A stretch of 64,000 nt of DNA, taken from contig NC_092672.1 in assembly GCF_964355755.1 (NCBI RefSeq), forward strand, positions 36,514,501-36,578,500. The letters are read 5' to 3'. The notes under the pieces are model-generated. The model had not been told where the DNA came from and made no database searches. It saw only the letters and a list, made by a program, of their open reading frames with translations. How positions within the stretch are numbered: position 1 is the first letter of the stretch; every line of letters begins with the position of its first letter. Shown here piece after piece: positions 9,301 to 61,252 of the stretch. The position numbers and the translations under genes are program-made. The DNA is from Antedon mediterranea (lineage: Eukaryota; Echinodermata; Crinoidea; Comatulida; Antedonidae).

Positions 9301-10152
9301 CAGGACAGACAATAAAGCTCGGTCTACACTATCAAATATGGTAGTGATATGCCAAAATATGGTAGTGATATGCCCAAATATGCTAGTGATATGCCCAAAT
9401 ATGCTAGTGATATGCCCAAATATGCTAGTGATATGCCCAAATATGCTAGTGATATGCCCAAATATGCTAGTGATATGCCCAAATATGCTAGTGATATGCC
9501 CAAATATGCTAGTGATATGACATCATCATGTCCATATATGGGCACATCACATTTTGTTCTCACATAAAGTTTGATAGTGTAGACAGAGCTTTAGATACTT
9601 TAAATTGAATCGAAATACAAACCATCCTTATCACCCCAGTTTGAATGCTTATGCAACTGTATTCTGCTCCTTTTAAAATATTTTTTATTTATCACCCAAG
9701 TTTTGTTTTATTTTTCTTGCACTTATTATTTGCATGTATTTTGTTTAGTCACACAACTACTCACATTTGTTTAGTTTTATTTACTACTAACAATACTATA
9801 TTTTTACCATATTAAAAAAAGTGTGTCATTGTCTCAAAACTCAAAAGACTAAAAAAACAATGTTTTGCACTGTTTAATTGCTACCCGAAAACATTTTTGG
9901 CCAGCCCAAGGGTGTTCAGGTATTTTTGGCCAGCCCAACATTAAACAGGTTTAGAGGAGTTGATGAATCAACTTATTAAACCCAATAATGTCACTCGTCT
10001 GTGTAAATTGGTCTTACCATCATCCGGTTATTCTTGCCTTTAAACTACTCTTCATTGTATCCAATTTTAAAAATTAATTTTCTCTTTTCTTTCTGTAGAA
10101 CGGAGAAAACTTTCAATCAATGTTGCAACAAGCGAAAGAAGAGTTCCTGTGA
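327..10152 (+). CDS. HIP1: HIP1/HIP1R-type (Sla2 family) endocytic adaptor, 3' part of gene
   Basis: Adaptor linking clathrin coats and phosphoinositide membranes to F-actin during endocytosis. Predicted exons: 327-449, 1216-1328, 1440-1605, 2192-2282, 2588-2676, 3099-3273, 3743-3832, 3941-4027, 4241-4348, 4449-4591, 5489-5596, 6001-6153, 6489-6589, 6710-6939, 7288-7463 and 10099-10152 (stop TGA). All have AG/GT borders and consistent phase, giving about 668 aa. The first exon opens with SPPNFF, as in the linker after the ANTH domain of HIP1 proteins. Residues about 90-330 are heptad-rich coiled coil. Residues about 400-640 form the talin-like I/LWEQ (THATCH) actin-binding domain, with RWTEGLISAAKLVG, CSHEIAASTAQLV and a C-terminal helix VLELESLLDKER. 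The ANTH domain and start codon lie outside the window, matching the usual total near 1000-1070 aa. HIP1 versus HIP1R cannot be settled, since invertebrates generally have one orthologue. Introns carry family A elements and LINE remnants. Confidence 0.93.
695..750. repeat. dispersed ACCCCTATTAGG-type repeat
   Basis: GTAGAACCCCTATTAGGAGG then ACACCTTGGAGG. Related blocks occur at 2766-2900, 33410-33455 and 37535-37575, and the unit of the 36405 minisatellite shares GGACACCCCTATTTAGGG. Confidence 0.55.
752..915 (+). mobile_element. tRNA-derived SINE, copy 1
   Basis: The head resembles a tRNA: an A-box-like TAGCTTGGTGGTTATGATG, then CTTGGCTACCAATCTAAGGGTCC and a decayed B box. The body (ACAAATTACAACTCCACTCC onwards) matches the copy at 29163-29345. 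Lies in a HIP1 intron. Confidence 0.75.
1892..2070. mobile_element. family A foldback element (MITE)
   Basis: Starts TAAAGCTCTG and ends TAGATAGAGCTTTA, with CAAACTAGTTTGACAA on one arm and CACATAAAGTTTGATAGTG on the other. Inside are three units of ATATGGTAGTGATATGCCCAA. The left terminus has lost several bases (CTACAC). Confidence 0.85.
2341..2504. mobile_element. family A element, degraded
   Basis: CTAAAGCTTTGTTACACTATCAA at the left and TTTGATAGTGCAGCCAAAGC at the right, with the ATGGACATGATGATGTCATA core. It begins about 60 bp after a HIP1 splice donor (2283). Confidence 0.8.
2766..2900. repeat. dispersed ACCCCTATTAGG-type repeat
   Basis: AGTAGAACCCCTCATTTAGA, AGACACCCCTAATTAAGAAA and TGTCTCTATTAAGGGAACAC in series. 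In a HIP1 intron. Confidence 0.55.
3480..3722 (+). mobile_element. LINE 3' end fragment (CR1/L2-like)
   Basis: The frame from 3500 reads YGGRASAVAAPTLWNSLP, then FKTQLKPFLF, the usual C-terminal tail of non-LTR reverse transcriptases. A short 3' UTR (AGCACATTGAGAGATTTTTT) and a TTATTATT tail follow. 5' truncated; in a HIP1 intron. Confidence 0.8.
5120..5300 (+). mobile_element. possible LINE 3' UTR fragment
   Basis: GTGCCTTGAGCACTTTAGTGG then ATAAACGCTTTATAAATCTTAT resembles L2-like 3' ends ('cacttTagtggataaacGcTtTATAAAT'). No coding part. The block at 5735-5850 looks like a similar end in the opposite direction. Confidence 0.4.
6340..6450 (+). mobile_element. LINE 3' UTR fragment
   Basis: TTGTTGGGTCCCTCGTGAGA, AGTGCGGGCCCCAGTTATTA and the terminal AATAAATGTGTATAAATGAA with tandem GAAT units look like a CR1-type 3' end. 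In a HIP1 intron. Confidence 0.5.
6975..7118. mobile_element. family A element
   Basis: Left end TAAGGCTCTGTCTACTTTATC, right end TTTGATAGTTTAGACAAAGT. Only one internal 21-bp unit remains. It starts about 36 bp downstream of the HIP1 donor at 6940. Confidence 0.82.
7937..8075. mobile_element. family A element with TTA duplication
   Basis: AGCTCTGTCTACACTATC to GCATAGACAGAGCT, flanked on both sides by TTA (7934-7936 and 8076-8078). One of the cleanest target duplications here. In the last HIP1 intron. Confidence 0.88.
8663..8872. mobile_element. family A element with TTA duplication
   Basis: AGCTCTTGTCTACACTATC to TGTAGACGGAGCT, flanked by TTA. It contains four 21-bp units (CACTACCATATTTGGACACAT). 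A spurious 64-codon frame runs through it on the minus strand. Confidence 0.86.
9313..9594. mobile_element. family A element with expanded 21-bp array
   Basis: Termini TAAAGCTCGGTCTACACTATC and TAGTGTAGACAGAGCTTTA. The interior is nine tandem 21-bp units, mostly ATATGCTAGTGATATGCCCAA. Because 21 is a multiple of three, several frames stay open on both strands; these are not genes. Confidence 0.88.
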
Positions 10153-12642: not shown

Positions 12643-13007
12643 TTTAGTATTTTTAGACCATGCCCATCACAAAGTCGTCGTTAATTAATTGTGTAGCCTA
12701 ACTATCACCCACATTATCATATTCAGACGAGCATGTAAGTTAATTTAAGTAAAACTTATTTCTACAGTAAATGTGCACTTAATACTATTGTATTTTAGTA
12801 GCAACAATTATATTTTATTAAATATTACTATTTATCCGAATGTTGAACAAAACACAACGTTTATGTCTGATTAGTACATAGGCACTCCACATATTTATTA
12901 TCAATTATATTATTATAAATAGTTTTATTGACATTTTGCATCGCATAAATAAAATAGTACTGTATTCTTTTTCTATATAAATAATATGTAAACCCCGGGA
13001 GATATAG

Positions 13008-13124
13008 CTACGTTTCACACGGATCCGTACCGATGCCGGTATAAACACAAATGTACAGGGTACACACCGAATTGTGTCATCACTATTCGTCCGGCCGCCG
13101 GATCAGGGTTGTGTGTGAACGTAG
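13008..13124. mobile_element. 117-bp palindromic element
   Basis: CTACGTTTCACACGGATCCG at the left pairs with GGATC then TGTGTGTGAACGTAG at the right. The interior is CpG-rich, unlike the AT-rich surroundings. A foldback element seen once here. Confidence 0.65.
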
Positions 13125-13646
13125 ACATGACGTTGAAATAAATGAATGGGATTTTAAAATATTTGTTGAATTTATTTGTCATTTTTTTATGGAGCCAAAG
13201 AAAGAGAAACACCAGAACGCAGCTTTCTATCGTAAAGCCAAACCATGAGTGAATTTTTGGTTCAGCACAAGCTACCAATGTAAAAGAAATTGAATAAAAT
13301 GTTTTCAGTTTTATGGCAAGCTGTCGAGGGGTGTTTTTGCATAACCAGGTGTGACGAAAATTCCTACCATGAATGACGTTGCATCGGTGGAATGGAAGTC
13401 GGACGAAAATGTATGATAAAGACGGTTATCACGTGGATAAGGCTTCATTCGAAAGGTAGAGCACGAAGGCGCTTAGCCTCTTACCTTTTAAGAATGTAAA
13501 ATCATGAGTGAACGAAATGATTAGATTCAAGCATTTACCATTGGTGTATTGTTAGGAAATACGGTAACGAGTTCTAATCCACAGATGTTCGTTCTTCATG
13601 TGCAGTAATGCAAATGGATAAATGTTGTAGATTATTTTTTATTTCC

Positions 13647-14235
13647 CGCTAGTAGAGACGCAACACAAGGACGTAAGTAAAGCGTGGTTCCCACTAGAAC
13701 GCAACGCAGTGACGTATTGACGCAAAGTGTTGTATGGATTATTCGAACTGTCGCTTGTCATTAGTTCAACGCACTTAAGCGTGGTTCCCACTAGCGACGC
13801 AACACAAGGACGTAACGCAACGCAAGTGAATTGACCAATCACAAGCGATGGCTTATTCGCTTGTGATTGCTAACTGTTTATAACTTCACTTGTCATTGGT
13901 TAAAACGCTTGCGTTGCGTTTACGTCCTTGCGTTACGTTCTAGTGGAAACCAAGCTTTACGTTGCGTTAACGTTCTTGCGGGCGTCCTAGTGGGAACCAA
14001 TCTAAAGCTTGGTTCCCACTAGAACGTAACGCAAGGACGTAAACGCAACGCAAGCGTTTTAACCAATGACAAGCGAAGTTATAGACAGTTAGCAATCAAA
14101 AGCGAATAAGCCATCGCTTGTGATTGGTCAATTCACTTGCGTTGCGTTACGTCCTTGTGTTGCGTCGCTAGTGGGAACCAAGCTTTACGTTGCGTTAACG
14201 TTCTTGCGTGCGTCCTAGTGGGAACCAATCTAAAA
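13647..14235. mobile_element. family B foldback cluster, nested copies
   Basis: Family B elements open with AGCKTGGTTCCCACTAG, continue ACGCAACGCAAG and pair with the mirrored right half; the core has GACCAATCACAAGCGATGG. A full copy (13778-13956) sits inside an older copy (13681-14003), with TTA on either side. A further copy in the opposite orientation (about 14005-14192) is followed by a second copy of the outer right end. Confidence 0.85.
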
Positions 14236-14822
14236 GACCGAACACTATAATTAAACCAACATAACCTATTATCGTTGTATGTCTCTATTGACATTCACAC
14301 TATATTGAGATACAGTTTAACTGTATTGATATACGTATACGGTCATTACTGATACCATTGAACGTTTTAATGGTTGATGTGTTTAGCTATTAGTGTTTTA
14401 TTTTTGGTTGTAGACAATTAGTAATGGTAATTATTTTCTTGTGTTTGTGCATATAATTCTGCAACAGCTGGATCAAAATGACTTATTTATTTGATAACAA
14501 ATAAAGTAATAAACCTAAATATACGCAAAGAAACCCACAATAATTGCACTTTAAAATAGCACTATTGAGAACAGTTTTTTTTTTATTTATTCCTGATAAC
14601 CGATCATTGAACCATATTTTCATTAGGTCTGTCAACTATCTCAAGCATAACATATTATCAACCACACGTTCTCAAGTTATCCATTACGTATGTAGGCCTA
14701 TTTAATATTTGACTTCTGCAACTTGTGAATGCTGGTATACAGGTGAGAAACAATGACCTATACTAAAGTAGTTTAATTTTGCCATTAAAAAGCTTTATTT
14801 CATCTAAATCGACCAACTAAGT

Positions 14823-15005
14823 AATGCTCTGTCTACACTATCAAACTAATTTGACAAAAAGTGTGATGTGCCCAATATGGTAGGGATATACCCAAATATG
14901 GCAGTGATGTACCCAAATATGGTAGTGATATGACATCATCGTGTCCATATATGGGTACATCACTTTTTTGTCACATAAAGTTTGATAGTGTAGACAGAGT
15001 TTTAG
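14823..15005. mobile_element. family A element
   Basis: Termini AATGCTCTGTCTACACTATC and TAGTGTAGACAGAGTTTTA, with three 21-bp units (one with GGCAGTGATGTACCC). Confidence 0.86.
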
Positions 15006-15419
15006 ATGGCCAATGACATACTGCGTTCTCTATGCTTGCTGTATGTACAGTAGGTTATTATACCTACATGTAGTGTGTGTTTTAGTAGTACAAAGGTGAG
15101 ACATGTGCATTTTATGGCCTTTTTAATATTTTAACACGCTAGCTTTTTAACATAAATACTAGACTATCAAATAATAATGTGCACTACTAATCATTGGTTT
15201 ATAGTTAAATCAAGACTATCAACAGCCTTACTAGATGCAGCTAATTGTTTGGTCCAACAACCATTCGTAAAAAATGTATAAAAGATGATGGGTGTCGGCG
15301 TTGAGAGAACAGAGGTAGGCATACGTCATTCAACCGGTAGTTCGTGACACTGACGTATCCACTTGTGGTAGCCTACGTATTTTCTTAAGGCACTATGCCG
15401 TTGCAGACCTGGTCTCGAT

Positions 15420-15565
15420 CGTAGTGCAATTATGCAGCTCAGAGTCTACAATAATCGTCCTCTGATTGGCCTATGTCTACAAAAGTCTACACTTGATTGG
15501 TCAATTGTCTACAATAATTTCACCAGTCTACAATAAATGAACTGTGATTGGTTTACGTTGGATTA
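15420..15565 (+). repeat. GTCTACA / ATTGG motif cluster
   Basis: Five occurrences of GTCTACA (mostly AGTCTACAATAAT) alternate with ATTGG boxes (CTGATTGGCC, TTGATTGGTCA, TGTGATTGGTTTACG). A related cluster lies in inverted orientation at 24230-24490. Confidence 0.6.
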
Positions 15566-16178
15566 CGTAGTTATGGTAATGAGGAGGCGGAGCATCTTCA
15601 TCAAAACATTGTGTTCGTCGCGAGCAACACATGTGTGTACTACATGCCTGAGAGCTGTCAAGGGAAGATTTTATGCTAAACTTTGGTAAATTTTTAAAGA
15701 ATATTTAACTGCATAAAATTGGAACTTCCAACTACATAAGCATTCAGCAATTATTAGTAATCAAATAATCTGGTTAAACATTGATAACACAGTGGAGCTT
15801 ACGGCTTGCTACGGCAAGCAAAGGTTGTAATTAGACTCCCTCCTGCTTCCATCAAGTAGGGAGTTGTAATTAGACTCCCTGCTTCAAGCAAGCCTTATAC
15901 AATGGCGACCATGGTTATACTTGTAGCCTGTCGGCCTAGTAGAGTAGTAGGGCTGGTGGTAGGCGTACTCCTTGAAGTTGTGTTCTCCTGCGGCAGCCTA
16001 CTTGCCAGACACCATCCAATCCAATGAATAAAGTATAATCATGGAGTTATACCTCCATGGTATAATTTAATTTAATTCTATACCATACAAACAATAATAT
16101 TTAAACCCATTGCATTAAATTGATTTTTATATTATTTAATAATTTATGAAATAATGTATTTTTTCCCCTAAAAGTAAT

Positions 16179-16514
16179 TTAATGGTTTACTTCTATATGG
16201 ACGGGCAAAGACAAAGTAACCTGCTATTCTATGTGTCGGGGTACAGACAAATATGGCGATGCAATAAATACAATTAAAGATTTCAGTCAGCCTATGCTAC
16301 AAGTAAATGTATTTCAGGTAACAGATTTCAATAACTTTTTTATCACTTTGTAACATCTGACAATATCTTAATGTAAAAACATTTTTGAAATGGGATATGC
16401 TTTATGATGACAGTATATTTCACCATTTCTTATTTATAATATATTTTTATATATTTATAATATATTTTTCATCTTGTAGGCCTTCATCTTCAATCTATTT
16501 CAGTCAATAACAAA
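16179..16514 (+). other. possible 5' exons of the DUF6729-like gene
   Basis: A frame open from after a TAA at about 16176 to 16318 ends at a good donor (CAG|GTAACA). It reads WFTSIWTGKDKVTCYSM and onward. A second short stretch, 16480-16514, has an acceptor (TTGTAG) and donor (GTAAGT). Joined to an acceptor at 16798, they run into a TGA before ATG 16811, so they would be non-coding or an upstream frame in that transcript. No initiator or clear acceptor is seen for the first one. Weak evidence. Confidence 0.25.
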
Positions 16515-16810
16515 GTAAGTATTTTTTGCCATTTTGCTTGACATACAAGGGGAATAATTATTTATTAAAAAACAGATACATTTTTATGCGTCATATACTT
16601 ATTTTTGAAATATTTTTAGTTTAATAATAATTATGTTGGTACTCGATTATAATGTTCTTCCAATGTTTATGTAAGCACATTCAGCCAGTTTATGTTAAGA
16701 ATTCTCTTAGAATCATTTTTATTACAAACCTTTTTAAATTTCTGAAAAGAGACATTATTGTTATTTATAACATTTTTCATTTCCGATTCAAAATATAGGA
16801 AGTCCAATAA

Positions 16811-19800
16811 ATGAAAATGCTTCCAAAATTGCGTGTTCATAATAAAAATATCCCAGCCAATAAACAGCAATGCACTCTGTCATGCACACGTGAAGCTTAT
16901 GAATATGCAAAGTCAAAGAAAACGTTGGATATTTCAAAAGAAAGATTATTCAAAGAAGAAACTGGTTTCGAATCGGCTAGACAGGTACTACAACAATCAA
17001 GACAAATTATTAACCCATCCAGAATTCAATGCCTTGGAGAACTGGTCATTCCATTTGGGAAATATTGCAACCAAAATTTCAGATGGCTTTTAGAGAATGA
17101 TGTTGGTTATGCAAAATAGTAAGTACAAATGACACATGTTTTTAATGAAAATAGTTAACATACTGTTTATAAATGGGGTGAACCAGTATTGATATAGTTG
17201 GTTACTTTTCTTGTATGATTATGTTTTTTAAATATTGACAGACATTTTCAATATTAAATTTTTTTAGTGTTATTGACAAACATTTAAAAGAAAAAGTACA
17301 CCCTGGACGCAAAGTCGAAATACGGGATGGCTGGCTGAAGGATATGCTTTATGAGTATGCCGAAATGTTTCCTCCTGTAAGCTCTCATCTGGAGAAAAAT
17401 ATAGACTACTGCATATACGGTCAGTTTGGCTTTAGTGATAAAACATACCTTGAGATGTGGGAACTGTATAACCGTCACAAGACTCGCAATCCTTTAGAAG
17501 AAATTGATGATTTGGCAAAACAGGCTTACAATTCTGTAAGGAAATGGATTCTCACAAAACCTAACTACATATCAACAGCTACCATGAAACGATTTAGATT
17601 GTATATTTTATCAAAGGATGAGGATGAGGTGATTAACAAATATTGTCTTATATTTATATTTGTAGGTAAATATTTGTAAATAAAAAATTGAATTATAAAT
17701 TGTTACTGATTTAAAAAAAAATTATATATTCCAGAAAACTGCTAGACTAGAACAAGATGAAACCAATCGTACAGATGAACAGCCATCAACAAGCACAAGC
17801 GACTCAGGTATGAATTAATGCATTACCAGAAATAAGTTGTTTTTTTTTTAAACAAATTTTATTTAAATACATTTCATTATTATACAGCAATCATTGTTTG
17901 CATTAATCTTTAAAAATTCCCTTAATGATTTTTGTTAAAATAAATTTTTTATGTTTTAGGACCACCATTAAGAAAATATTTAAAACAAATGCAGCATAGT
18001 TCGAATATTAAACAAAAGGCTACTGGACAACCTAACATTACAGATATTTCTAGTCAGGTAATTAATTCAAGGATGTCTGTTATATTAGCATTTACTACAC
18101 ATCCCTAAGTGTGTACATAGCATTGTCAATTTTTTTTTTATGATATATTCCAGAAAACTGCTAATTTTGTTAGTGCAGATGAACAGCCATCAACAAGCAC
18201 AGCACAGCATAGTACGAACATTAAACAAAAGGCTCCTGGACAAGCTAACATTAGAAATGTTTCTAGTCAGGTAATTAATTCAAGAATGTCTGTTATATTA
18301 GCATTTGCTACACATCCCAAAGTATGTATAAGCATTGTCAATTTTTTTTTAATGATATATTCCAGAAAACTGCTAATTTTGTTAGTGCAGATGAACAGCC
18401 ATCAACAAGCACAGCACAGCATAGTACGAACATTAAACAAAAGGCTCCTGGACAAGCTAACATTAGAAATGTTTCTAGTCAGGTAATTAATTCAAGAATG
18501 TCTGTTATATTAGCATTTGCTACACATCCCAAAGTATGTATAAGCATTGTCAATTTTTTTTTAATGATATATTCCAGAAAACTGCTAATTTTGTTAGTGC
18601 AGATGAACAGCCATCAACAAGCACAGCACAGCATAGTACGAACATTAAACAAAAGGCTCCTGGACAAGCTAACATTAGAAATGTTTCTAGTCAGGTAATT
18701 AATGTTTTATTTAATTTGTTATACTATCTATATTATCTGTGACTCATACTATTTTCAAGCAAATATTTTAAAAATATATTATTATTATTATCATTAACAT
18801 CATCATTATTATGTTGGTTCTTGTGTGTTTTTTAACTCACAGCAGGTTATCTATGAAGGATGGTGCAAAAGCTGGGAAGATAATACCACCAAAGCATCTA
18901 TACCACCTGAAGACCGTGATTGGTTAAAAAATGACCAGGATAGGGGAATGTTTGGTCCTGTTCAGATGTACACAGACATTAATGGTGCGCAGCAATACCG
19001 TCGTGTTCTGAAAACAGACAGAATGTGGTTTTATCCTCCAGACAGTCCAGGTCATGTTGGTGGTAGTCCTCCAAATGCTGATGCCTTTTTTCGATCCAGA
19101 CTGTTCTTTTGGCGCCCAGTTGGTGTATGGAAGTACAGCCTAAGATGTCCTCGAACAGATTGTCCTGGTAAAGATAAGCAGGTGTTTTTGTATAAAAGTG
19201 GCTACCACGGCAAATGTAGACATGTGTGTGACATCAATGGTTGGTATAGTATGCTGACTGAAGTTCTTGCTTGTGGTCCTTGCAACAAGGCAGCATCAGC
19301 AATAGGTAAATCAAGCTCATCTAAATGGGGTCGATTCCTAGCTTGGGACAAATCAATATTGTCGCAATTGACGCCAGCACATCAGGCAATGTTTCCTGCA
19401 GTACTTACTGTTTGGTAAGTTAGTTACAAAATTTACTCTTCAATTAAATATTAATTTACATATTACTTTCTTTTTATTTGAAAGCAAGACATTTACGGTA
19501 CTCAAATTAACACTCTTCTTTCATTTCATAGTCGTGGTGTAGATAAGAAAGTGCTGCAACTCATGAAAGATCGGACTGAAGGCAACACAATGGCAAAAGT
19601 ATGGCGTCAAGTCCAAGAGAATCATTGCGATGAATATCTAAACAGAAAGGATATGTACACAACTCTGCTAATGGACTTGTTAAAGCCTGGAAGCATTGTT
19701 TCTTCATTTCGTACAAAATTCAAAGCTCCAAAGCAACGTTGGCAACTCCCATCACCAAGACTTTTAAGACATGCTTTTTTGTTGGGTGAAGCTGATAAAG

Positions 19801-22590
19801 TAGAAGAATACAGAACACAAATTCTCTCAACATTTGGAAAGGTCCTGAAATTTGATTCAACTAAAAAGGTAAAACACTTTCATCCAAACAGAATATAAAA
19901 TACAATATGAAATCCTCCTAAATCCTAAATTTTTCATTTTTCCAAATTTGGTACAAATACAAGGATGAGGGTAAATTGCGTCAACTTTCCCCCTCTAAAT
20001 CCAACTAATGGTAATCCTTATTTTATTTTAGATATGTAAAAAATTGTCAGGTGAAGGACGAGGGACTGCCGAATGGTGTACAAACATTGGTAATGAAAAT
20101 AGCCAAATTGTAAGTTTTGTTTTCACATGCGAGGAATCGACCAAAATGCTAAAACCCATGGCAGATGGTGTAATGGAGCGTTATAGGCTGGCAGGAGAAG
20201 ATGCACCACAGCTTATGTATATAGATAGAGGATGTTGCCGTGAACATGGTGCAACATCAGTAGAAGTCCTCTTTAAAGATTGGGTGGACAATGGAATGGT
20301 GATAAGGCTTGATGCTTGGCACTGGATGCACAGATTTGATGCTGCTGTTCGTACCGACAGTCATCCAAAGTTTGGCCTTTTTAAGTCCGCTTTAGCAGGA
20401 GCCGTGTTCGCTTATAACAAGGCAGATATGGACCTCTTGGTAAAAGCTGTTCGTGCAGGCTCTGACGACAACTACAGTGGGTTATCAGATACAGAGTTGA
20501 TACACCAGCGTATCTCATCATTGACTGTAAAACACTACGTGCGTAGGATTACCCAGGGCAGCCAAGAAACATTTAGGCTTCTGGACTTTGCCATCGAAAC
20601 TTTAAAAGGTAATGCTGGCCTCGATGAAAATGGAGTACCATTATTCAAATCTGATGCTGCTATCGACGAGGTTTGGACACAACAACAGCGTCACTTAGAG
20701 TGCATACAGGATCCACCGAACATGCCCATGTATAGAGTAGCGAAGATCAGTTTGAAGAATGGAATTGACATTCCATATTACACATGCATGCGTGGCAATA
20801 ACAGCCTTGAAGGTTTTCATAGTCATCTGCCAAAAATGATACCAGGTTAGTAATAATACTGCAGTTTATGCATGTACTGTATACAATGTTAGAAGCTATC
20901 ACCAATATGGAAATTTTTACAAATTAAGAACTATAGATAAAAATATTGATTGATAAAGTTCTATGTATCCAAAAAGTTTTAAAAAAATATTTATTTTCAG
21001 GTCCTCATTGTGCAGCACGACCCTTCCAGGTGTATCTATTGAGTGGAATCGCAAGGTGGAACTCTGATAGGGAAGCAGAATCAGTTTTCGGCAGAAAAGG
21101 ACGTCAGCATAGGGCATATTCGACCAGTTTAATGGAAAGATTGAACAAAAGATGCGAGAAGCTGTTTGGTGAAAAGGAGGAAAAGAATTTCCGCGTTCCT
21201 GCAAAGGCAACAAATGAATTACTTGGTCTTGAGTACTTGTTTAACCAGTCAACAGCTTGCTCTGTTGAGGATTTAGAAGATACAGGCCCAAGTATGGAGG
21301 AAGAAGTATGCCTTGATTTGGATGATGGCGATGGTATTGATGCTGGTTATGATTCCGAAACTGACACGTTCAACAACCATATGAAACCATGTCATGTTGT
21401 ATATACATCTAAGGAAGCAGCGGAGTCCCACGATCCTTCAAGTGTAAGTTGATTTCATTATTTTTTTGTATTACAATGCAAACCTGTATACTTTAAATGG
21501 GGAATTTAAAAATTATTTCATGTTAGTTTAACTTGTATCGATCACGATTTCACAGGAAGATGTCTGTATGAGTAAAAAACATCTCAAGGGATTTGAAAAG
21601 GTAGAAATTCTAAGCAACTTGCTAGTAGGCCTGGTTTTGGACAAGTTACCTATAATACCTTCAAACAAGAGAAAAGAGATTTTTCAAATGTGGGATAGCC
21701 TAGATTCACATGATAAATGCTACAAACATTTCCGCACAGCTTACAAAACACAATGGGGAAATACCATGTATGGGCGAACAAAGGGTGATGAGATAGAAGC
21801 TTCCATAACGCAGCGAATAAAGCATCGCCATCGTTTCACGCCTGCGCAGAGCATTGATGTGCAGAGAAATCGTTTAATGTTTAGCATTATAAAGCATTTA
21901 TGGTTACAGTACAGTAGCAATACACTGATTCTGCAGCGCTATCAGACTTTACAACAGCTTGTAATTGGTGATCCTGTGCTGGGAAAGCTTGGTATTCCAC
22001 TGGGAAATATTAACTTGAAATGTATTCGAACTTTCATACAGAGACAGCAAGCACTTGCTAGTGTCGGATCAACTGAGCAGAGCAGATACATCACAAAGAA
22101 AATGGATAGCATCTCAAATACAACTTTGCCGGCTGCACCTGAATTCCCAGCGACACAGCCTGAAACTTCCTGGCCAGAAACAACCACTTACCCAGAAATT
22201 GAGTGTTTGGCAGGAACAAAAAAAATGAAAAACAGAATTGACGAGAGTGATACAAAGAAAGGTGAATTTTCAAAACGAGATACAGCTCCAGTGACAGTGA
22301 CCTTACCAACTAGTACACAAGTGGAACAAGCACCAACGACGTCATGGGCAAGGTCAACCATGTTTAAAAGACGTACACAAGAAAAATCCGGTGAGATTGT
22401 TCTGAAAACAAAAAAGAGAAAAGAGGCCCTTCCAATTTGTGCGCTGTGTTCCAAACCCATGCATGGCCATAAAAAATATAAGAAAAAAACGTGGTGCGAA
22501 GAAAGCAAGAAATCTACATCAAAAGGCCTTAAAACAATTAACTTTAATAATTTTGAACATTTTAAAGAAATTGTCGATAATTTAGATTAG
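16811..22590 (+). CDS. DUF6729-like, DDE-transposase-like multi-exon gene
   Basis: Predicted exons: 16811-17118, 17268-17628, 17735-17807, 17960-18057, 18154-18270, 18366-18482, 18578-18694, 18843-19414, 19532-19868, 20032-20845, 21001-21443 and 21556-22590 (stop TAG). Phases agree throughout, giving about 1463 aa. Residues 80-110 hold GKYCNQNFRWLLENDVGY, resembling ExoX C-terminal-like segments. Residues 224-397 are low complexity and include three identical 39-aa repeats. Residues about 430-560 are Cys/Trp-rich (FFWRPVGVWKYSLRCPRTDC, then GYHGKCRHVCDINGWY), which I recall as the DUF6729 pattern. Acidic residues follow DDE order: D696 in KFDSTKK, D765 in MYIDRGCC, a D-x2-H (LDAWHWMH, D794/H797), and E960 in NNSLEGFHSHL. 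The C-terminus has a Cys/His knuckle (CALCSKPMHGH). ATG 16811 follows an in-frame TAA. This is inferred to be a transposase-derived gene; whether it is mobile or domesticated is open. Confidence 0.8.
18058..18698 (+). repeat. tandem 212-bp exon-plus-intron triplication
   Basis: Three units, each one 117-nt exon plus about 95 nt of intron, follow one another. Donors lie at 18271, 18483 and 18695, exactly 212 bp apart. The two intron copies after exons 18154-18270 and 18366-18482 look identical. The intron before the first unit differs slightly (18058-18153). Each exon is phase 0 at both ends and encodes 39 residues starting KTANFVSADEQPSTSTAQHS, so any number can be skipped or included without frame change. 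Confidence 0.92.
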
Positions 22591-24229
22591 TTATGGACTC
22601 TTTTTTCATATTTAAATAGTATACAGTATATATAGTAGTATTATAATGAGGTGACATCGGGTATGAAGCGTCTCACATACACACAGAGCCAAAATGGCAT
22701 CTTGGACTTGCACAGTGTATGGACTCTAACCTTACGGTTTTCATTAAATATATCATTCCACGCTATCATCCTAATTATCTGATTTTCAAACTTTTGCATT
22801 CCTCTTTTTTCATCTCATCCATTTTTTCTTGGTGAAAAGGGAGGATATTTTATATTCCTCCTCTGAGTTTATAGCCTCTCTACCCGAACACGAACAAGAT
22901 AGTGACTTTTATAAGTCTGATTTTACACATAAAACTGTTTTCATTCATTACTGAATTCAAGATTGCATAACTTTAAACATTTTTAAAATGTAAATATTTA
23001 ATGTAATTTAATGTAAATACGAAGATTCATTAGAGGGCACATAGAGTTATATTTATTTTGTTAAGTTGTTAATAGAGAAGAGAAAAAAACAAAAGTTTAC
23101 TGTCTACAGAAGTCTGTGCACATGAGATAACTCTTTTATTTTACATTAATAGTTTTGTATTGCTAAGAGGCAATGAAATAATAATTGTGAACCGTTTATA
23201 TTTTAATATTCTTAATTTGTTAACTTGTTACATAGAGAAGAATAAGAAAAACCAAAGGATTGTGTAGAAGTTTACACATAAGAAAACTATTTTTATTTTA
23301 TGCTTGCATACTTTTAATTAATAATATAATTTTTACAATTCAATAATGTTTAACGGCAACAAAATTGTTGAATCCTATACGTCGGTACTACAGGTATATT
23401 GTTTATTATTATTCAAGTACATCATTGGCAATGTAATACTTTCGAACCGTTTTCTGTTTATATTTTAAATTAATCTTAATTTTTTAATTTGTTAGAGAAG
23501 ACAAAGAAAAACAAAAGGATTGTATAGAGGTTTGCACATTTAGTTTTTTATTATAATACAATTTTCACAATTCAATCCACAACAAATAGTGTGGAATAAA
23601 ATCTATGCCTGTACTTATGCTAATATGTACAGTAAACTTAATACTATTATTATTATACTGTATTATCTTCCCTGGTATTAATGTGTTGAAAATTGAAATA
23701 TAGTTTCAATGTGATGAATTCCATTCACGTTTCATTTTAAAAAACAATTAGAAAAAGTTTAATTGTAATTGCTAAAATGTATACTACCTCTCTCTGGCCT
23801 ACCTCATTGAAAAAGTACTAATTACGGGACATTAATTAATATATGATGTGAGACTAAAAGTATCTTTTAATAGGCCTATAGATAATTATAAATAGAAAAT
23901 GGGTAACTGTTTTTATTTTACACATGAACAGTATGTAATTATTGTTTTTATAGATCATTTATAATAAATATTTTAACAGTTGGCCTAGGCCTAACCTCTA
24001 TCTGTGTATGCCTACACACTTTAAAATTCCGCCTAGGCCTACGATCAAATTTCTCAGGATATCAATAAAGCATTGTTTTACCCTCATCTAGAGACTAGTT
24101 ACCTCTGAAAAAAGGAGATATATTTAATAATAAAGTTTTCAAATTTCAAGTAAAACTAAAAGTATTATTGATTCATTTATGCCGTTGTACGATGGTGGTT
24201 GCAGGAAAATGTACACAAACCCCCTGATT
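22591..24229. other. intergenic, convergent 3' ends, degenerate repeats
   Basis: AT-rich spacer between two convergent genes, the DUF6729-like gene and SEC14L. A degenerate tandem repeat of roughly 160-250 bp appears about three times (near 23065, 23225 and 23490), recognisable by TTAATTTGTTA, AGAGAAGA and AAAACAAAAG followed by GTNTAGA. No convincing open frame is present. Confidence 0.45.
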
Positions 24230-24490
24230 GGACAGCATAAATAATGCTCATGAATATAACGTAGACTTCATGAATATAACGTAGACTCTCCATAGGCTTT
24301 TTTGTACACCTCATGAATATAACGTAGACTCTGACCTTCCTCATGAATACAACGTAGACTCTGACCTTCCTCATGAATATAATGTAGACTCTCAACCAAT
24401 AGCAATACAGTAATTGCTCCACTGTGATTGGATGTTGTACAACAAATTCTAATTTTAATATCATGAATATAATGTAGACTGTCAGCCAAT
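24230..24490 (-). repeat. short repeats at the SEC14L 3' end
   Basis: On the minus strand the unit AGTCTACRTTATATTCATGA occurs about six times, partly with spacer GGAAGGTCAG. Two units are preceded by CCAAT/ATTGG-containing stretches. The distal unit overlaps the SEC14L stop codon at 24482. The rest would be 3' UTR. A similar motif set lies inverted at 15425-15560. Confidence 0.75.
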
Positions 24491-27400
24491 GGCGCTACAG
24501 TGATTGCACGACGGGTGAACGGAGGTCTCGTTGCAGTGTTCCTTTGCTTTTGTCGTGTTTTCATTCATTGGTGGTCGCACTTCAACATTGTATCTTACAC
24601 TTTTACTCTGTAGAATGTTGGTATTTTCAAATGTAAGCACATCTAAACAAAGAAGAACACTATTAGTTTAAATGTGTTTCTTTTTTCTTATTCGCACCCA
24701 AAAGCAACTTGCAAACTATAACTTATCGTGCCTAAACTAAGTCTAAAATCATACATGAAGCTTGGTTCCACTAGAACGTATAGGCAAGAACGTAAACGAA
24801 ACGCAAATAGTTTGACCAATCACAAGCGATGGATTATCAGAACTGTCGCTTGTCATTGGTTAACTCCCCTGCGTTGCGTTACTTACACAGTCCAACTTGT
24901 ATACAGACTATTTTCCCTGATTCTGGCACTTGGTTTGAGTTGTACTTTGCTTTTGACTGGATTATTTTCAAATCTTTCTCCTTCTCTTTTTCAGCTTTAT
25001 TTTTCTTAAATATTCCAAATATGATTGCTTCATCCGAATTGAAATCCCAACTGAGGAAAATGTGAATAAAGAAGTACGATTAGTGTTGACATTGTCGATA
25101 AAGTTTAACATTGAAAAGAGTACTGTTGTTGCCCGTAGCGTAATGAGGACTCTTTTACAGCCTTGGGTACACTTTATGTGACAAAGCAATGTGATGTAAC
25201 CATATAGGGACATGATGATGTCGTATCACTACCATATTGCGGCATATCGCCACCGTATTTGGGCATATCGCCACCGTATTTGGGCATATCGCCACCGTAT
25301 TTGGGCACATCATACTTTTTCTTGTCAAGCTAGTTTGATAGTGTAGACAGAGCTTTAGGCTTTTTTGTACATACCTTATAACTGAGTTTTCTTCTGTTAT
25401 CTCTAGTTTGACGTAATGTGACGATTTAGAAGGTATTGATACTTTTTGCAAATTTTCAATTTCTTGTAATTCTTTATTGACGTAGTACGATCGAGGTACT
25501 TTGCCACCCCAACATATCTATAAGAAATATAATTACTATAAAGTAAATTGTAACTGTAAATGCACACACGAGAGTAGCCATCTCTTTCACGCATCTCGCA
25601 AATCGGGAGCATCTCATAAATCGGGCGCATCTTGAACATCGAGCGCATCTCGTAAATCGGGCGGAAACTGTACATCGCAGCGCATCTCGTATATCGGGCG
25701 CATCTCGTACATCGGGCGCATCTCGTACATCGGTGTGTTTTCGATAAATTTGTTTTATGTTAAAGAATTTTTGCTCGAGGATTTTGCTAGCGTCTATATC
25801 TTCGTCGTCATTTTATTTATCTTTGCCATAGTAATATTTGTCATATCTTCGTCAGAATTATTATAGTAATTAGGCCTACCATACCTCATCTTTACATTGC
25901 GGACAACCGTTTGAATCTGTTCTTGTCCCTCCGTAAGCTTTTGGTAGCTGGTCAGGATCGATATACTCTAGTAAAACCTGTAATTGATTACCTGTCGGTA
26001 ATAATATAAGTTAAGTAACACAAATGTGCTATTAGAACATTACACTTATAATAAACATTATGTTAGTCTCCCAAAATAATCTACCTAAATATACTTATTG
26101 TGTGCTTTCAATCTATCGTCGTGTGTAAGCTCTGTCCACACTATCAAATTTGATGTGACTTTTTTTTTCAAACTAGCTAGTTTGATAGTGTAGACAGAGA
26201 TTAAGGTCGAGTTGTTCTCAGTTTCGATACAGTTTTACGGTGTCTTGTAAAATAGATATAGTTTCAAAATGACAAGGCCTATTGTATATCCATCCACTCT
26301 TCTTTTAATATTATATTTAATATTTACTTTTGAGGAATTTGATCTTGTGTGTTGTGTCTTCACTTAGAAACGGTTTGATTAAACTGAAACCCGCAGATAC
26401 CATACTTGGAGCTGTAAATTGAAAATATGCATTTTATTTTACTTTCGGCAAACAATCAAACAACAACATTAATGCAAAGGGGTAAACATAATTGATTGAG
26501 CATCAAAGAGAAAACTAGACAAGAGTGTTATTAATAACTCCAGACTGGTTGTAAACAGAATTTGGTTTACAGCACTATAAATATTTGCGTCGAGCGCAGC
26601 GTGGAGTAAAGCTTTGTCTACACTATCAAACTAGAAGTGTGATGTGCCCAACTATGGTGGTGATATGCTCACATATGGTAGTGATGTGACATCATCAGGT
26701 CCATATATGGGCACATCCAATTTTTGTCACATAAAGTTTGATAGTGTATACAGAGCTTAACACAATTAGAAGTTTGTATTGATGGGTTAGTTAGATTAAC
26801 ATAATAGGCCTAAAGCCTAGCCTCTAAATTTGAATGTAGTGTTGTTGTCGAATTAGTTCAGTTCATGCAAATCATCACAATAAATATTATAGTATACTGA
26901 AAAATATAGATTACCATTTAGTACAAAACATATTTTAAGTACTTCTGGGTAGTTGGCCTCAAACATTGTAAAAGCGGCATTGTACGCATCAACTAACGGT
27001 TGCCATATATGGTGATATTCAATTGTATCAAGATCAACAATTACAATGACGTCATCAACAATTTTACCAAGCTAAAAAAATTAAATTATAATAATATTAG
27101 ATCAGAGACGTACGTTTCTGATTTAATAGTATATGAAGATTCATGTTTTTGCTAAATAAATGTGAACACTTGAATTGAATATAAGTATGACACGCTATGT
27201 GTGCCAACAAAACTTTCTCTTTTAAGCAGAATCGTCGTCGTCGTCTTGTTTACCTTTTTCGATTGTTCTTGAAAATCTTTCAATATTATTTCACAAAATT
27301 TAGTTTTGTATCGGACAAAATCCGACTTATTACAAGATCGAACTATGCCTTTTGGATCTATACGCCCATACGGTTCGATCCAGATGATACCCCCATCTTT

Positions 27401-32287: not shown

Positions 32288-35200
32288 ATGTCGGTGAGCT
32301 TAGAAGAGTACTTTAGGACGACATTTGAGGATAAACTCCTCGTGTAAGTTTTGCTTGTTTTGTCTGAAGAATTATAAAACTAGCCTCCTTCCTACCTATC
32401 CCGACCTAACTAGGCCTAGCTAGCCTAGGTAGGCCTAGCTAGCTAGTTAAGTTAGGCCCTCCCTTGGCCTGCCTGGCTAACTAGATGATAGAGCTAGATA
32501 GCCTTGAATAAGAGGCCTAGTTGATGATGCTGAGTAGGCTACTCTAAGATAGGCCTAGAGGGTAGTAAGGATTAGGATAAGGCCTAAGGCTTAATAGCAG
32601 TATGAATATAGGCCTAGGCCAGGGGGCCTAGCCTATACTAGTCTAGGCCTAGGCCTATATGCTTCATAAATGTCAAACTCAAATGACTCTAAAAACTAAA
32701 GTAAGAATAAGATAAAAAGAAAGATTAAGAATAGCAATAATGTAATGTTCAATAACAGCATGTACTAGTAGGCTAGGCTCTAAGCCTCTATTATACTAAT
32801 AATAATATTATTATGAAACCAATCAATATAGTATCTTTTTTATTTCATAGCAAAATGCCAGAGAGGGAGGATGATCATTTAACTCCAGCTACTCGGTTAC
32901 TTGAGAAAAGACGAGAAATGTCAGAAGTTGAACAGGCTTTAGCTGCACAGAAAGAGGCAAGTGAATAAAGTGAACCACTCTCACATGGTACATATTTTAT
33001 GTGAACCACTCTCACATGGTGCATATTCTATGTGAACCACTCTCACATGGTGCATATTCTATGTGAACCACTCTCACATGGTGCATATTTTATGTGAAAC
33101 ACTCTCACATGGTGCATATTCTATGTGAACCAATCTTTAATCCATTTCCAGTTTCCTGACTTTCTGATCTGTAATCATTTCTGAAATACACTGTATTACA
33201 GTAAAACTTCTTAATTTTGCTAAACTTGTATTTATTCAGGAGTTTCAGATGAAGATGGAAAGCCTGCAACAACGAAGAGAAGAATTAGAAAGAAAAGAAT
33301 ACCAATTAAAGGAATCGCTACTCAAGTTTGATAAATTTCTGAAAGTAAGGAAAATTAGAATATAGATTATCGGTAAAGAAATATCATGCTTTATAAGACT
33401 TATATTTTAACACTACACCTATTCAGGAGACACCCACATTAAAAGGGCACTTTCATTTTTTTTTTTTTTTTTTTTTCATTTCTTTATTCGAATTCATAAA
33501 ATAACACAACATAAAAAAAATACAAAGAATGAATTCAGGGTAACACAAAAAAGTAACCAAAGGTCAAACTTATTTCCATTGTGGCCCTTAAGGATAAAAA
33601 CACCATAAGAATAAACATTTACAATAAACAATAACACATGTAGTAACAATATAAATATAAATTATAATCTTTCAAGCATAACCTCTTTGAGATGTTTCCT
33701 GATATTTCTTTTGAATTGATTGATGGTTTCTGAACACTGTATCAATTTTGGCAGGTGATTCCATGACGTTATTGCCGTGTTAACAAAGGTTGTTTGGGAG
33801 TGGTTACCTATATATGGTCTATAAATTGATTGAGTTGCAAATCTAGTATTGTACTGGTGAATTACATTTGCTCTACTAATACCATCATTCATAAACGTAG
33901 GGCTTAATCCATTAATAATACGATACATGTGACAAAGTTTTATCTGTTTAACTCTTAAGTCTACTGGGAGCCAATTCAGTTTGTTTAATTCATTAGCCCC
34001 AATGTGATCCCTTGGTTCAAGACCAAGAATACATCTGACCGTCTTATTTTGTGCAGTTTGCAATTTAACTTTTAATGTTTTATTGGCTCTCAAAGGTGTT
34101 CTCTTATAGGTGTGAGGTTCTACTGTATTCAAGATTATTTACATTTCTTATTTTATCTACCGGTACCTCAAAACCACATTGTACCACAAACCAATAAAAT
34201 AAACCTAGAGAATGTTTTTGCTATCTTCCAAATCTTCTATACTGTGAAAATAAATTCATTAGAATAATAATTAAATTCTACTTCTGAAAATCAATTTTTC
34301 ATTTATAGGAAAATGATTCAAAAAGATCAAGAGCTGTGAAGAAAGCAGAAGATGAGAAAGAACACAAGAAAACAAAAGATAAAGAGATAACGCGGCTTTT
34401 AGAGGAGAAGGGCGAGTTGGAGCAACAACGCAATAAGTTTATGATGCGGTTGGAGAAACGCAAGATATTTAATACGTTTCTTGATCGCGTGTTGGAGTCA
34501 GCAGAAGAGTTTCAAGAATCACGGGATGTGATAGCTAGATTTGAGACACTTGTAGCAACACATAAGGTATTAACAGCTTGATTTAGCCTAGTTGAGGAAC
34601 TGTACAGGGGACACCATTTTGCTTGCCCAAACTAGATTGACTAGTTCTGTGTAAGATTTTAATCTCCAAATAGCTTTAAGTCATTCTTATGTCATACTAC
34701 TTACCTAAAGCTCTGTCTACATTGTCAAACTTTATGTGACAAAAAAAATGTTTTTTTTTATTTATTTATTTTTTAAAATTTATTTATTTTTTAACATTTA
34801 TTTTTTTTTTTTAATTTATTGATTTTTTAAAATGTATTTATTTGTTTTATTTCATACATTCATATATGTAATATTTGTTTCAGGATTTAATGGATAAAGC
34901 TAGCAAATCCCAAGACGCAGTAGACGGTCACAAAGCAGAGCTGATGAAGTTTACCGAGGAGAAGAACAATGAGATATTAAGTCACAATAATCAACTAGCA
35001 ATGTTACAGACGAGGCTGGACACGGCTCAGGGAGATGCTGTTAAATGGTAACAAACTTTAATCTGTGAAATCGGTGAAACTACAGTATTAAGATAAGATA
35101 GTGACTTGTAGACGCTCCTGTGCGATTTCCAAATTGCATTTCGTCTAATTTAGGCGCGATCTTGGGTTTTATCCATGACGAGGCAAAGTGTTCTAGCATG

Positions 35201-38200
35201 CGTACAAAAATTGGTGTAATGGATATGGGTCTGATTTGATTTAAGTTAACCGGTCCTTTCACTTTAGGAAGTGGGGTTATGGTCGCCTCTTTCCACTTGC
35301 GCGGGACTATGCCTTGCGAGAGTGATGCGTTGTAGATGTCAACTAACGGTGATGCAATTTCAAATGCGAATTCTTTGATGGCGCGAGGCGGTAGATCACC
35401 CGGGGCAACTGATTTGTTGCAGTTTATTTTCTGAAGCTGATGATACACCTGCCAGAAGTTGAGTGTCGGTGCATAGCCACAAGGAAGGTATGATGGTAGA
35501 CTATTAGTTTGTAGGGGTTCAATCTTCTGGCATATATTCGCTAGGTAGTTATTTATTAGTTCGCAAATTTTAAGCGGATCGGTTTCTTCAGTTTCTAGAT
35601 TCAACACCGATTTCTTTTTATTCGTACCGCATATTTGGTTAACTTTTTGGAACCACTGCTTTGCGTTAGTGTTTTGCAGATTGTTAACTTCGTATTTGTA
35701 GTATTTAATCTTTGCTTGTTTGATTTCCCAAATTACTTGGTTTCTAAGTGTACGGAAATTGCGGGACATTTTTCCATATTTATGAAAACTAATTTGTCTC
35801 TTCTTACAAAGTCCTTTTATTTTTGGTGTGATCCATGGTTTGTCATTTGAATGAACTTTAATTCTGCGCTTTGGAAAACAACGTTCGTATGCCAGACATA
35901 ATGTTGATTCGAAAATATTTACTTTTTCATCAAGGTCGTCGGTTTCCAGTATTTCATGCCAATCTTGTGATGTTATCCATTGACCAAATCTATTGCAAGC
36001 AGATTCGCTAAAAGGCCGGGGAGACTTAATAACATTGCGGCCCTTAATGCAGACGAATCCAGGTTTTGGTTTCCATAAAATCGAATTCAATCATTATGCA
36101 GAATGTAATGTATATCTTTAAAAGAGATGATATACATTATTTAATACTTGATTAAAGGTCGTATAAAATATTGAATTCATGCTTGATATTACATTTCTTG
36201 AATAATTCATATTTACTACAGTATTTCTTCACACAATTTTCTAGTGATTATAACTAAACTCTAGAGGGCAGATGACAATTTTTTATGTTCATCAAAGCAA
36301 ATTCTCACTGTAAAGAATGTGTATTTCACAGTGAAAAATTAAATTATAAAATTTATTAATATTAGATTTTTTAAATAAATAATTTAATTTATTATACAGA
36401 AGTTCTCCTTTTGGACACCCCTATTTAGGGCCATAGCCAGCATGAGCACTACCTTGTCTTAGGGACACCCCTATTTAGGGCCATAGCCAGCATGAGCACT
36501 ACCTTGCCTTAGGGACACCCCTATTTAGGGCCATAGCCAGCATGAGCACTACCTTGCCTTAGGGTACATTGGACACCCCTATTTAGGGCCATAGCCAGCG
36601 TGAGCACTACCTTGCCTTAGGGACACCCCTATTTAGAGCCATAGCCAGCATGAGCACTACCTTGCCTTAGGGTACATTGGACACCCCTATTTAGGGCCAT
36701 ATCCAGCATGAGCACTACCTTGCCTTAGGGACACCCCTATTTAGGGCCATAGCCAGCATGAGCACTACCTGGCCTTAGGGACACCCCTATTTAGAGCCAT
36801 AGCCAGCGTGAGCACTACCTTGCCTTAGGGACACCCCTATTTAGGGCCATAGCCAGCATGAGCACTACCTTGCCTTAGGGACACCCCTATTTAGGGCCAT
36901 AGCCAGCATGAGCACTACCTTGCCTTAGGGTACATTGGACACCCCTATTTAGGGCCATAGCCAGCGTGAGCACTACCTTGCCTTAGGGACACCCCTATTT
37001 AGAGCCATAGCCAGCATGAGCACTACCTTGCCTTAGGGTACATTGGACACCCCTATTTAGGGCCATATCCAGCATGAGCACTACCTTGCCTTAGGGACAC
37101 CCCTATTTAGGGCCATAGCCAGCATGAGCACTACCTGGCCTTAGGGACACCCCTATTTAGAGCCATAGCCAGCGTGAGCACTACCTTGCCTTAGGGACAC
37201 CCCTATTTAGGGCCATAGCCAGCATGAGCACTACCTTGCCTTTTGGACACCCCTATTTAGGGCCATAGCCAGCATGAGCACTACCTGGCCTTAGGGTACA
37301 TTGGACACCCCTATTTAGGGCCATAGCCAGCATGAGCACTACCTTGCCTTTTGGACACCCCTATTTAGGGCCATAGCCAGCATGAGCACTACCTTGCCTT
37401 AGGGTACATTGGACACCCCTATTTAGGGCCATAGCCAGCATGAGCACTACCTTGCCTTTTGGACACCCCTATTTAGGGCCATAGCCAGCATGAGCACTAC
37501 CTGGCCTTAGGGTACATTTTCCTGTTGAAAATGAAATAGTCCAACCCCTATTAAGAAGACACTGTTTTGGATCCCTACCTTTTGTATGTATTATATTAAT
37601 GTTGATATCGTTTTCTTAGGGAATCTGTGTGGACACATATTAAGAACACAGCAGCCAAGAAGACTCTACTCCTTGGCAGAATTAAAATGTAAGTTTAAAG
37701 CTATGTCTACACTATCAAACTTTATGTGACCAAAAAATGGGAGCATATCACTACCCTATTTGGGAACATCACACTTATTTTGTCAAACTAGTTTGATAGT
37801 ATAAACATAGCTTAATGATTGTACTTCTAGGACGTTAGGGCGTAATCACAATGCAAGTAAATTGACCAATTACAAGCGGTGGTTCGCATGATCCTTAAGA
37901 TTACATTTGTTGCACATATTTTCTTGCGTTGCGTCCTCTCATAGTAACTACTTAATATTCTGTCATTCAGATTAAGGCTTGATTTTAAGTAATTTGTCAA
38001 GTTAAGTTGTTTTAATTTAACCCCAACATGAGCCACTTAAACATATCTCTTGTCACTGCTTATAGAGTTGTTATTTTTCCATAACCTTTTAATTGGTTGT
38101 CTCTTACGTTTGAAATTTTCATTTAGTTCTAGCAAACATACTTGTCAACTAATGCATTTTATTGTTAGCTAATAATGTTATTATTCTAACACTAATAATG

Positions 38201-61069: not shown

Positions 61070-61252
61070 TTTCAGCTGTGTTTCATACCAATCGTTGTTC
61101 TTCCCAAGACTTTTGAATTAGAGAGTTAAGCAATATAAATCGGTTTAATAGTAAAAGTATTCAAGCAGCAGTTCTTGATGACATGTCCCTGGCGCTGGAC
61201 GAGTTGCCTGGGAAGCCGTGACAGCTGTCAAACGTGTTTTCTTCAAGAAATA
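61070..61252 (-). other. 5' UTR segment of the GPCR with a short upstream ORF
   Basis: On the minus strand a pyrimidine tract and TTTTTTCAG end at 61253, so 61252-61070 is a plausible 5' UTR exon part joined directly to ATG 61069. It contains an 8-codon upstream frame at 61184-61161 (ATG to TGA) that could lower translation of the receptor. Inference only. Confidence 0.4.

Follow-up and report, generated by a model that had tools for sequence, protein, structure and literature searches.

The 64,000-nucleotide stretch of Antedon mediterranea DNA analysed here (NC_092672.1, positions 36,514,501 to 36,578,500 of the forward strand; hereafter the window) holds a large intron-bearing gene at positions 16811 to 22590, and the question that it raises is what this gene encodes. 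A preliminary description, made from the letters alone, had seen in it a DUF6729-like cysteine domain joined to a DDE-like core, and had taken it for either an active, intron-rich transposase of a poorly described family or a domesticated host gene. Our gene model bears out the architecture that was described, since its 12 exons join into one reading frame that opens with the ATG at 16811 and closes with a stop codon ending at 22590, giving 1463 residues without an internal stop, and 11 of the 11 introns are GT...AG. PF20499 (DUF6729) matches residues 451-670 with an E value of 3.3e-42 and is the sole Pfam family found at E up to 1, so that the proposed profile search recovered the cysteine domain but listed no transposase family at that threshold. 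The acidic residues D696, D765 and E960 lie in DDE order where they had been placed, with a D-x2-H (D794/H797) between the second D and the E; the D-D spacing is 69 and the D-E spacing 195. On the evidence given below, we conclude that the window gene very probably encodes the transposase of a Dada DNA transposon, that this transposon is probably of a U1/5S-type lineage, and that one intact copy is present. It would belong to Dada, a superfamily already described in 2013 and 2022; the intron-rich transposase of the preliminary description therefore stands but its poorly described family does not.

Published statements about Dada are taken here from extracts of two papers (PMC3706591 and PMC8869645) and hold to that extent. 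Dada transposases have the DDE residues with a DxxH, a D-D spacing of 68 (69 in the window protein), an N-terminal CCCC and a C-terminal CCHC (PMC3706591), and Dada elements insert into multicopy small-RNA genes (PMC3706591, PMC8869645). The many introns of the window gene are real, but in these extracts introns are normal for Dada.

The genome searched has a size of 354 Mb, divided over 18 contigs. The 1.2-kb segment 19500-20700 of the gene matched itself and one decayed place, L011 on contig C5, which is about 73-85% alike to the window gene in long pieces. At the exon level the protein search gave at least 60 matches; 34 of its 99 candidates were scored, and the copy counts are lower bounds. 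These matches led to three further families, A, B and C. Family A occupies at least 13 places by exon-10 matches, which are 40-43% identical to the window protein; family B was found on contigs C1 and C10, a copy on C9 being added by the PF20499 profile search (28 matches in the genome); and family C has two copies on C8, 13.3 kb apart. The copy-number check suggested earlier thus gave, among the matches listed, these three families besides one intact copy of the window family and two decayed ones (L011 and L022).

One spliced gene model was built for each of families A, B and C (L016 of family B was left out, and the model of family C holds one stop). D696, D765 and E960 are present in four of four proteins, as is H797, with D794 taken from the alignments; the acidic residues are therefore conserved among homologues as anticipated, and these homologues are mobile. 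The intron at residue 700, phase 0, was found by spliced alignment in all three families, and that at residue 972, phase 1, in two of them (A and B). All four cysteines of the CCCC (C499, C504, C541 and C544) are present in C and A, the C504 column being a gap for B in this alignment; in the C-terminal CCHC, A and B align a histidine at 1424 and family C does not in the same alignment. Because the four motifs and the residue-700 intron recur in all three modelled families, the window reading frame is not a chance one. Over residues 454-1064 the identities are 250/608 to C, 219/579 to A and 216/581 to B, so that the window protein is nearest to C.

In all three related families of this genome the insertions are of the Dada type. 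Family B adjoins U6 in two of the three copies seen. In L015, U6 positions 1-71 precede the element and U6 resumes after it, with GCAAGGA on both sides; in L016, U6 positions 1-55 lie at one end and the other end was without U6 by eye. The end of the family B element carries TCTTCTCTG, which faces CAGAGAAGA of U6, and a sub-terminal TCTTCTCTG is printed for Dada-U6 in the extract of PMC3706591. The exception is L014, which has GCGCAA on both sides; beyond it lie a family A copy in one direction and satellite-like sequence in the other. There, at 992-1453 and 9739-10000 of that locus, the Dada-U6-like B copy and the A copy stand head to tail with GCGCAA between them; these are two families at one kind of site. 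In family C the 5S gene runs up to CTGGGAAT, where the element begins, and at the other end CTGGGAATACCGGGTGCTGTAG resumes the 5S gene; both sides are visible in L012 only, as L013 has a run of N on its left. At this point three of four loci with an unbroken 5S gene read GCCTGGGAATACC, the fourth being a one-base variant, and the insertion point CTGGGAAT is the fish Dada-5S site as given in the extract of PMC8869645.

Family A was sampled by ten fetched pieces, L001-L010, from contigs C1, C3, C4, C5, C8, C10 and C11, which represent five copies standing singly and portions of two head-to-tail arrays of an element of ~7.5 kb; long stretches are 97.9-100% alike. The arrays consist of four copies on C8 with a period of 7556 and two on C4 with a period of 7544. 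Eight of nine left ends begin TACAAATAAC, L003 being truncated, and eight of eight right ends finish in GTACCCT; no terminal inverted repeat was seen at the aligned ends. A 6-bp duplication is equal on both sides in three of the four single copies that have both ends (TTGCGC in L001 and L004, TAGTAC in L005), while in L002 the flanking hexamers differ (CTGTAC and TAGCGC). We take the duplication to be 6 bp long, since a C follows on either side of the junctions, which matches the extracts of the Dada papers. In the arrays the hexamer between copies is the left outer hexamer (ATGCGC on C8, TAGTAC on C4), and the right outer hexamer is TTGCGC in both. The flanks, judged by eye, are satellite-like at six of seven insertion places, L003 being the exception; their tandem structure was checked in L001 and L004. 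TTGCGC is the Dada-U6 duplication on the opposite strand, and a hexamer of such kind travels with Dada-tA in the extract of PMC8869645. For these two reasons family A may be descended from Dada-U6 with a shift to satellite DNA. It looks recently active, with its target switched away from U6. Among the titles and abstract openings found in the literature, none reported a satellite-targeting Dada family and none linked DUF6729/PF20499 to Dada; nor did any paper turn up in which DUF6729 or PF20499 is named.

The lineage of the window element is indicated by L022, a relic on contig C5. It matches the window at 15433-15707, in short parts to 16234, at 16797-17567, at 22252-22540 and in pieces within 22949-23577, and its 17567 side is joined directly to the 22252-22540 part; it is thus an internally deleted relative with stops. 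Since the non-coding flanks of the window element are common to L022, the unit has multiplied as an element or as a block. The left edge of L022 lies ~10 bases from a 40-column U1-like match on the opposite strand, which scores 49, while shuffling gave scores no higher than 23 for the stretch (300 shuffles) and 28 for the locus (200 shuffles). The relative orientation of this match is that of U6 in L015 and of 5S in family C. Contig C5 also holds a U1 cluster (42 matches scored). Given the U1 fragment next to the start of L022, and family C as the nearest relative of the window protein, the window element likely belongs to a U1/5S-type lineage. Dada-U1 and Dada-5S are on one branch in the extract of PMC8869645. 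L011 contains 27 nt that resemble 5S (score 30, reached by 1 of 200 shuffles), but they are oriented opposite to family C and were not used.

A number of observations weigh against this assignment. The likeness to Dada is one to published descriptions of the superfamily. Rfam did not list U1 in the flank of L022, and the window copy itself has no RNA gene at Rfam thresholds and no tRNA, only weak unrelated matches being returned. Neither a U1 nor a 5S fragment stood out above shuffles (15 each) within window positions 13000-27000; the U1 signal is absent at the 5' edge of the window copy (300 shuffles), and a search for the 3' end and the target duplication of this copy found neither. The RNase H fold proposed at the outset was examined in a structure model of a contiguous family A frame that includes two translated introns, with D at 224, D at 332, DxxH at 356-359 and E at 522. 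Its mean predicted local distance difference test score (pLDDT) is 52, block means of 70 or more being reached only at about residues 341-510, and stretches below 50 contain both the first D and the E. By VIA-align this model matched ISCth4 transposase first (three entries with Z 8.6, 7.5 and 6.4), the best over 170 residues at a root-mean-square deviation of 3.9 and within model residues 280-539, which places the first D outside the match. Below ISCth4 come unrelated proteins at Z 4.8 and less, ahead of Hermes at 3.9, and retroviral integrases are near Z 3. Foldseek alone gave a best E of 0.16, and the model of window exon 10 was poor, with unrelated fold matches. Since a Z near 8 can be background with VIA-align, we read the resemblance of part of the core in the predicted family A structure to a transposase of the IS256 type as weak support. 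With exon 10 as query, no relatives were found in the IMG/VR scan and no match in the PDB sequence search.

That the gene encodes a transposase of another DxxH superfamily (hAT, MuDR, Kolobok or P, or KDZ) has in its favour that Hermes, a hAT member, occurs at a low rank in the fold comparison. Against this stand the insertions of relatives at published Dada sites in U6 and 5S, the missing terminal inverted repeats of family A, and Pfam, where DUF6729 stands alone at E up to 1, an absence that does not exclude the others; we consider such an origin very unlikely. KDZ/Zisupton, the first guess, was dropped after the extracts of the Dada papers, and Pfam gave no KDZ model at E up to 1, which is no exclusion. 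That the gene is a host gene unrelated to transposons, with DDE-like residues by chance, could be argued from the window copy alone, which has no demonstrable pair of element ends, but the same motifs and intron positions occur in three mobile families and the non-coding flanks recur in L022, and we give this explanation next to no credence.

A different matter is whether this Dada-derived copy now serves the host. That the host has retained a former Dada transposase at one fixed place to serve a cellular function, as with dDada in cyprinoid fish, is unlikely in our judgement, though to be taken seriously; the possibility concerns the status of the copy and not its origin. It draws on the single intact copy found beside two decayed ones, which at aligned codons carry 9 (L011) and 8 (L022) in-frame stops, on the lack of a recognised target RNA gene around the window copy, and on the comparison with L011. 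Over 691 codons the window gene and L011, which holds the 9 stops, differ by 0.127 at synonymous (dS) and 0.068 at nonsynonymous (dN) sites, a dN/dS of 0.53; of 103 differing residues polarised by family C, the window retains the ancestral state in 35, L011 in 8 and neither in 60, and the count is 45 to 6 when any of A, B and C decides. The window lineage was thus constrained relative to L011, because it kept the ancestral residues 35 to 8. Over 244 codons, L022 (8 stops) gave dS 0.187, dN 0.094 and a ratio of 0.50, but here family C sides with the window in 8 residues and with the relic in 7, leaving 33 undecided, and by any of A, B and C the count is 9 to 8; this comparison has no selection signal and adds nothing to the L011 result. 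The codon counts exclude gapped codons (99 for L011, 46 for L022) and the in-frame stops, and among overlapping BLAST pieces those with more than 30% already covered were passed over. The constraint seen against L011 fits a host gene and also an element active until recently, and a young copy of a recently active lineage would appear alike. Also against domestication are the flanks common to L022 and the catalytic residues, which, unlike those of dDada, are all intact. The activity that the preliminary description had entertained finds no support in the genome matches listed, which include no near-identical sibling of the window copy, and this copy lies beside no recognisable RNA gene. The fuller proposition that a U1/5S-type Dada transposase with a complete catalytic centre has been retained by the host under purifying selection after its element family died, in a genome in which a sister lineage moved from U6 to satellite DNA, we hold to be rather improbable; if true, the protein would be a recombinase that could still be active and that by itself recognises a sequence of a small-RNA gene.

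If the window protein works as published Dada transposases do, it would recognise motifs close to the ends of the element together with a short conserved stretch within a multicopy small-RNA gene. Cutting would be done by the D696-D765-E960 centre, and a 6-7 bp staggered cut would join the element to its target, leaving short target duplications without terminal inverted repeats. In this scheme it is the role of the zinc fingers, the catalysis and the target of the window copy that we infer. The Pfam orphan DUF6729 gains a likely meaning, as the cysteine-rich part of Dada transposases. One genome here harbours Dada lineages with different targets (U6, 5S, satellite and probably U1), a set that forms a natural comparison for how DDE transposases read their targets, and the window gene is a candidate for host retention with an intact catalytic centre.

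Table 1. Parts of the window element and its gene, in window coordinates
Feature	Position	Strand	Remarks
Upstream element part, sharp 5' breakpoint near 15433	15433..16810	+	Abrupt start of L022 homology, 220/281 columns
Coding exon 1	16811..17118	+	Gene model
Coding exon 2	17268..17628	+	Gene model
Coding exon 3	17735..17807	+	Gene model
Coding exon 4	17960..18057	+	Gene model
Coding exons 5-7	18154-18270, 18366-18482, 18578-18694 (span 18154..18694)	+	212-bp tandem units, 117 bp per exon, in frame
Coding exon 8	18843..19414	+	Gene model
DUF6729 region, residues 451-670	19002..19778 (exons 8-9, one intron inside)	+	PF20499, E 3.3e-42
N-terminal CCCC cysteines C499, C504, C541, C544	19146..19283	+	Spacing pattern as printed for Dada-U6_DR in the extracts
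Coding exon 9	19532..19868	+	Predicted catalytic D696 near exon end, codon 19854-19856
Coding exon 10	20032..20845	+	D765 20224-20226; D794/H797 20311-20313/20320-20322; E960 20809-20811
Coding exon 11	21001..21443	+	Gene model
Coding exon 12	21556..22590	+	C-terminal C-C-H-C: C1414, C1417, H1422 or H1424, C1433
3' non-coding part with internal repeats	22949..23577	+	Common in pieces to relic L022

Three of the 12 exons are copies of one exon, because exons 5-7 form a tandem array; its first two units agree at all 212 bp, intron sequence as well as exon, and its third exon agrees at all 117 bp. So perfect a repeat of exon plus intron is either very recent or an assembly effect. In the decayed relative L011 (5938-6688) a stretch of exon 10 is amplified in at least 8 tandem units of 75 bp. 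Inverted repeats that bracket the gene near 13.7-15.0 and 24.8-26.2 kb (among the 25 longest of 192) were not used as element ends because the left one consists in part of a dispersed repeat, and a motif array at 24.2-24.5 kb that faces the 5' end was dropped as the 3' end, one other place being similar; comparison with L022 and L023 at this array gave a weak 35-base match (24141-24175) and otherwise none. A large palindrome lies at 13777-14185 (arms of 188 nt, 96% complementary, 33 nt apart). Beginning ~12 bases past the stop codon, a 300-bp dispersed repeat (22602-22925) recurs at at least 39 other places, 87-93% alike, and has no match in L022. Elsewhere in the window there are I/LWEQ domain exons of a HIP1/talin-like gene (PF01608, 6669-7475) upstream of the element, minus-strand frames at 33662-36090 that are non-LTR retroelement-like by eye and without a Pfam match at E 0.01, and pieces of a rhodopsin-type receptor (PF00001, two frames) on the minus strand at 59554-61117.

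Among known systems, ISCth4, the best fold match of the family A model, is what we take to be an IS256-family transposase, and transposases of that family are bacterial, short and without introns. IS256 is named as distantly similar to Dada in the extract of PMC3706591. dDada, a domesticated Dada-U6 of cyprinoid fish (extract of PMC8869645), resembles the window gene in being an intact reading frame derived from a Dada element, but its catalytic D is often mutated and it has DxxQ, whereas the window protein keeps all of these residues. Dada-U6_DR, with 1402 residues and 11 predicted exons in the extract of PMC3706591, is close to the 1463 residues and 12 exons found here, and differs in its D-E spacing of 176 as against 195. 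Families A and B, about 37-38% identical to the window protein, are like Dada-U6 in their use of GCGCAA/TTGCGC, and B in adjoining U6 with TCTTCTCTG, but differ in that satellite-like repeats take the place of U6 around family A and one B copy. Dada-U1 and Dada-5S, which the extracts of PMC3706591 and PMC8869645 report from ray-finned fish only, share with the window protein the DDE residues with DxxH, zinc-finger cysteines at both ends and many introns; a relic of the window family adjoins a U1-like fragment, and the nearest relative in this genome, family C, sits in 5S at the fish site. They differ from the window copy in that the latter is single and lies outside any recognisable RNA gene.

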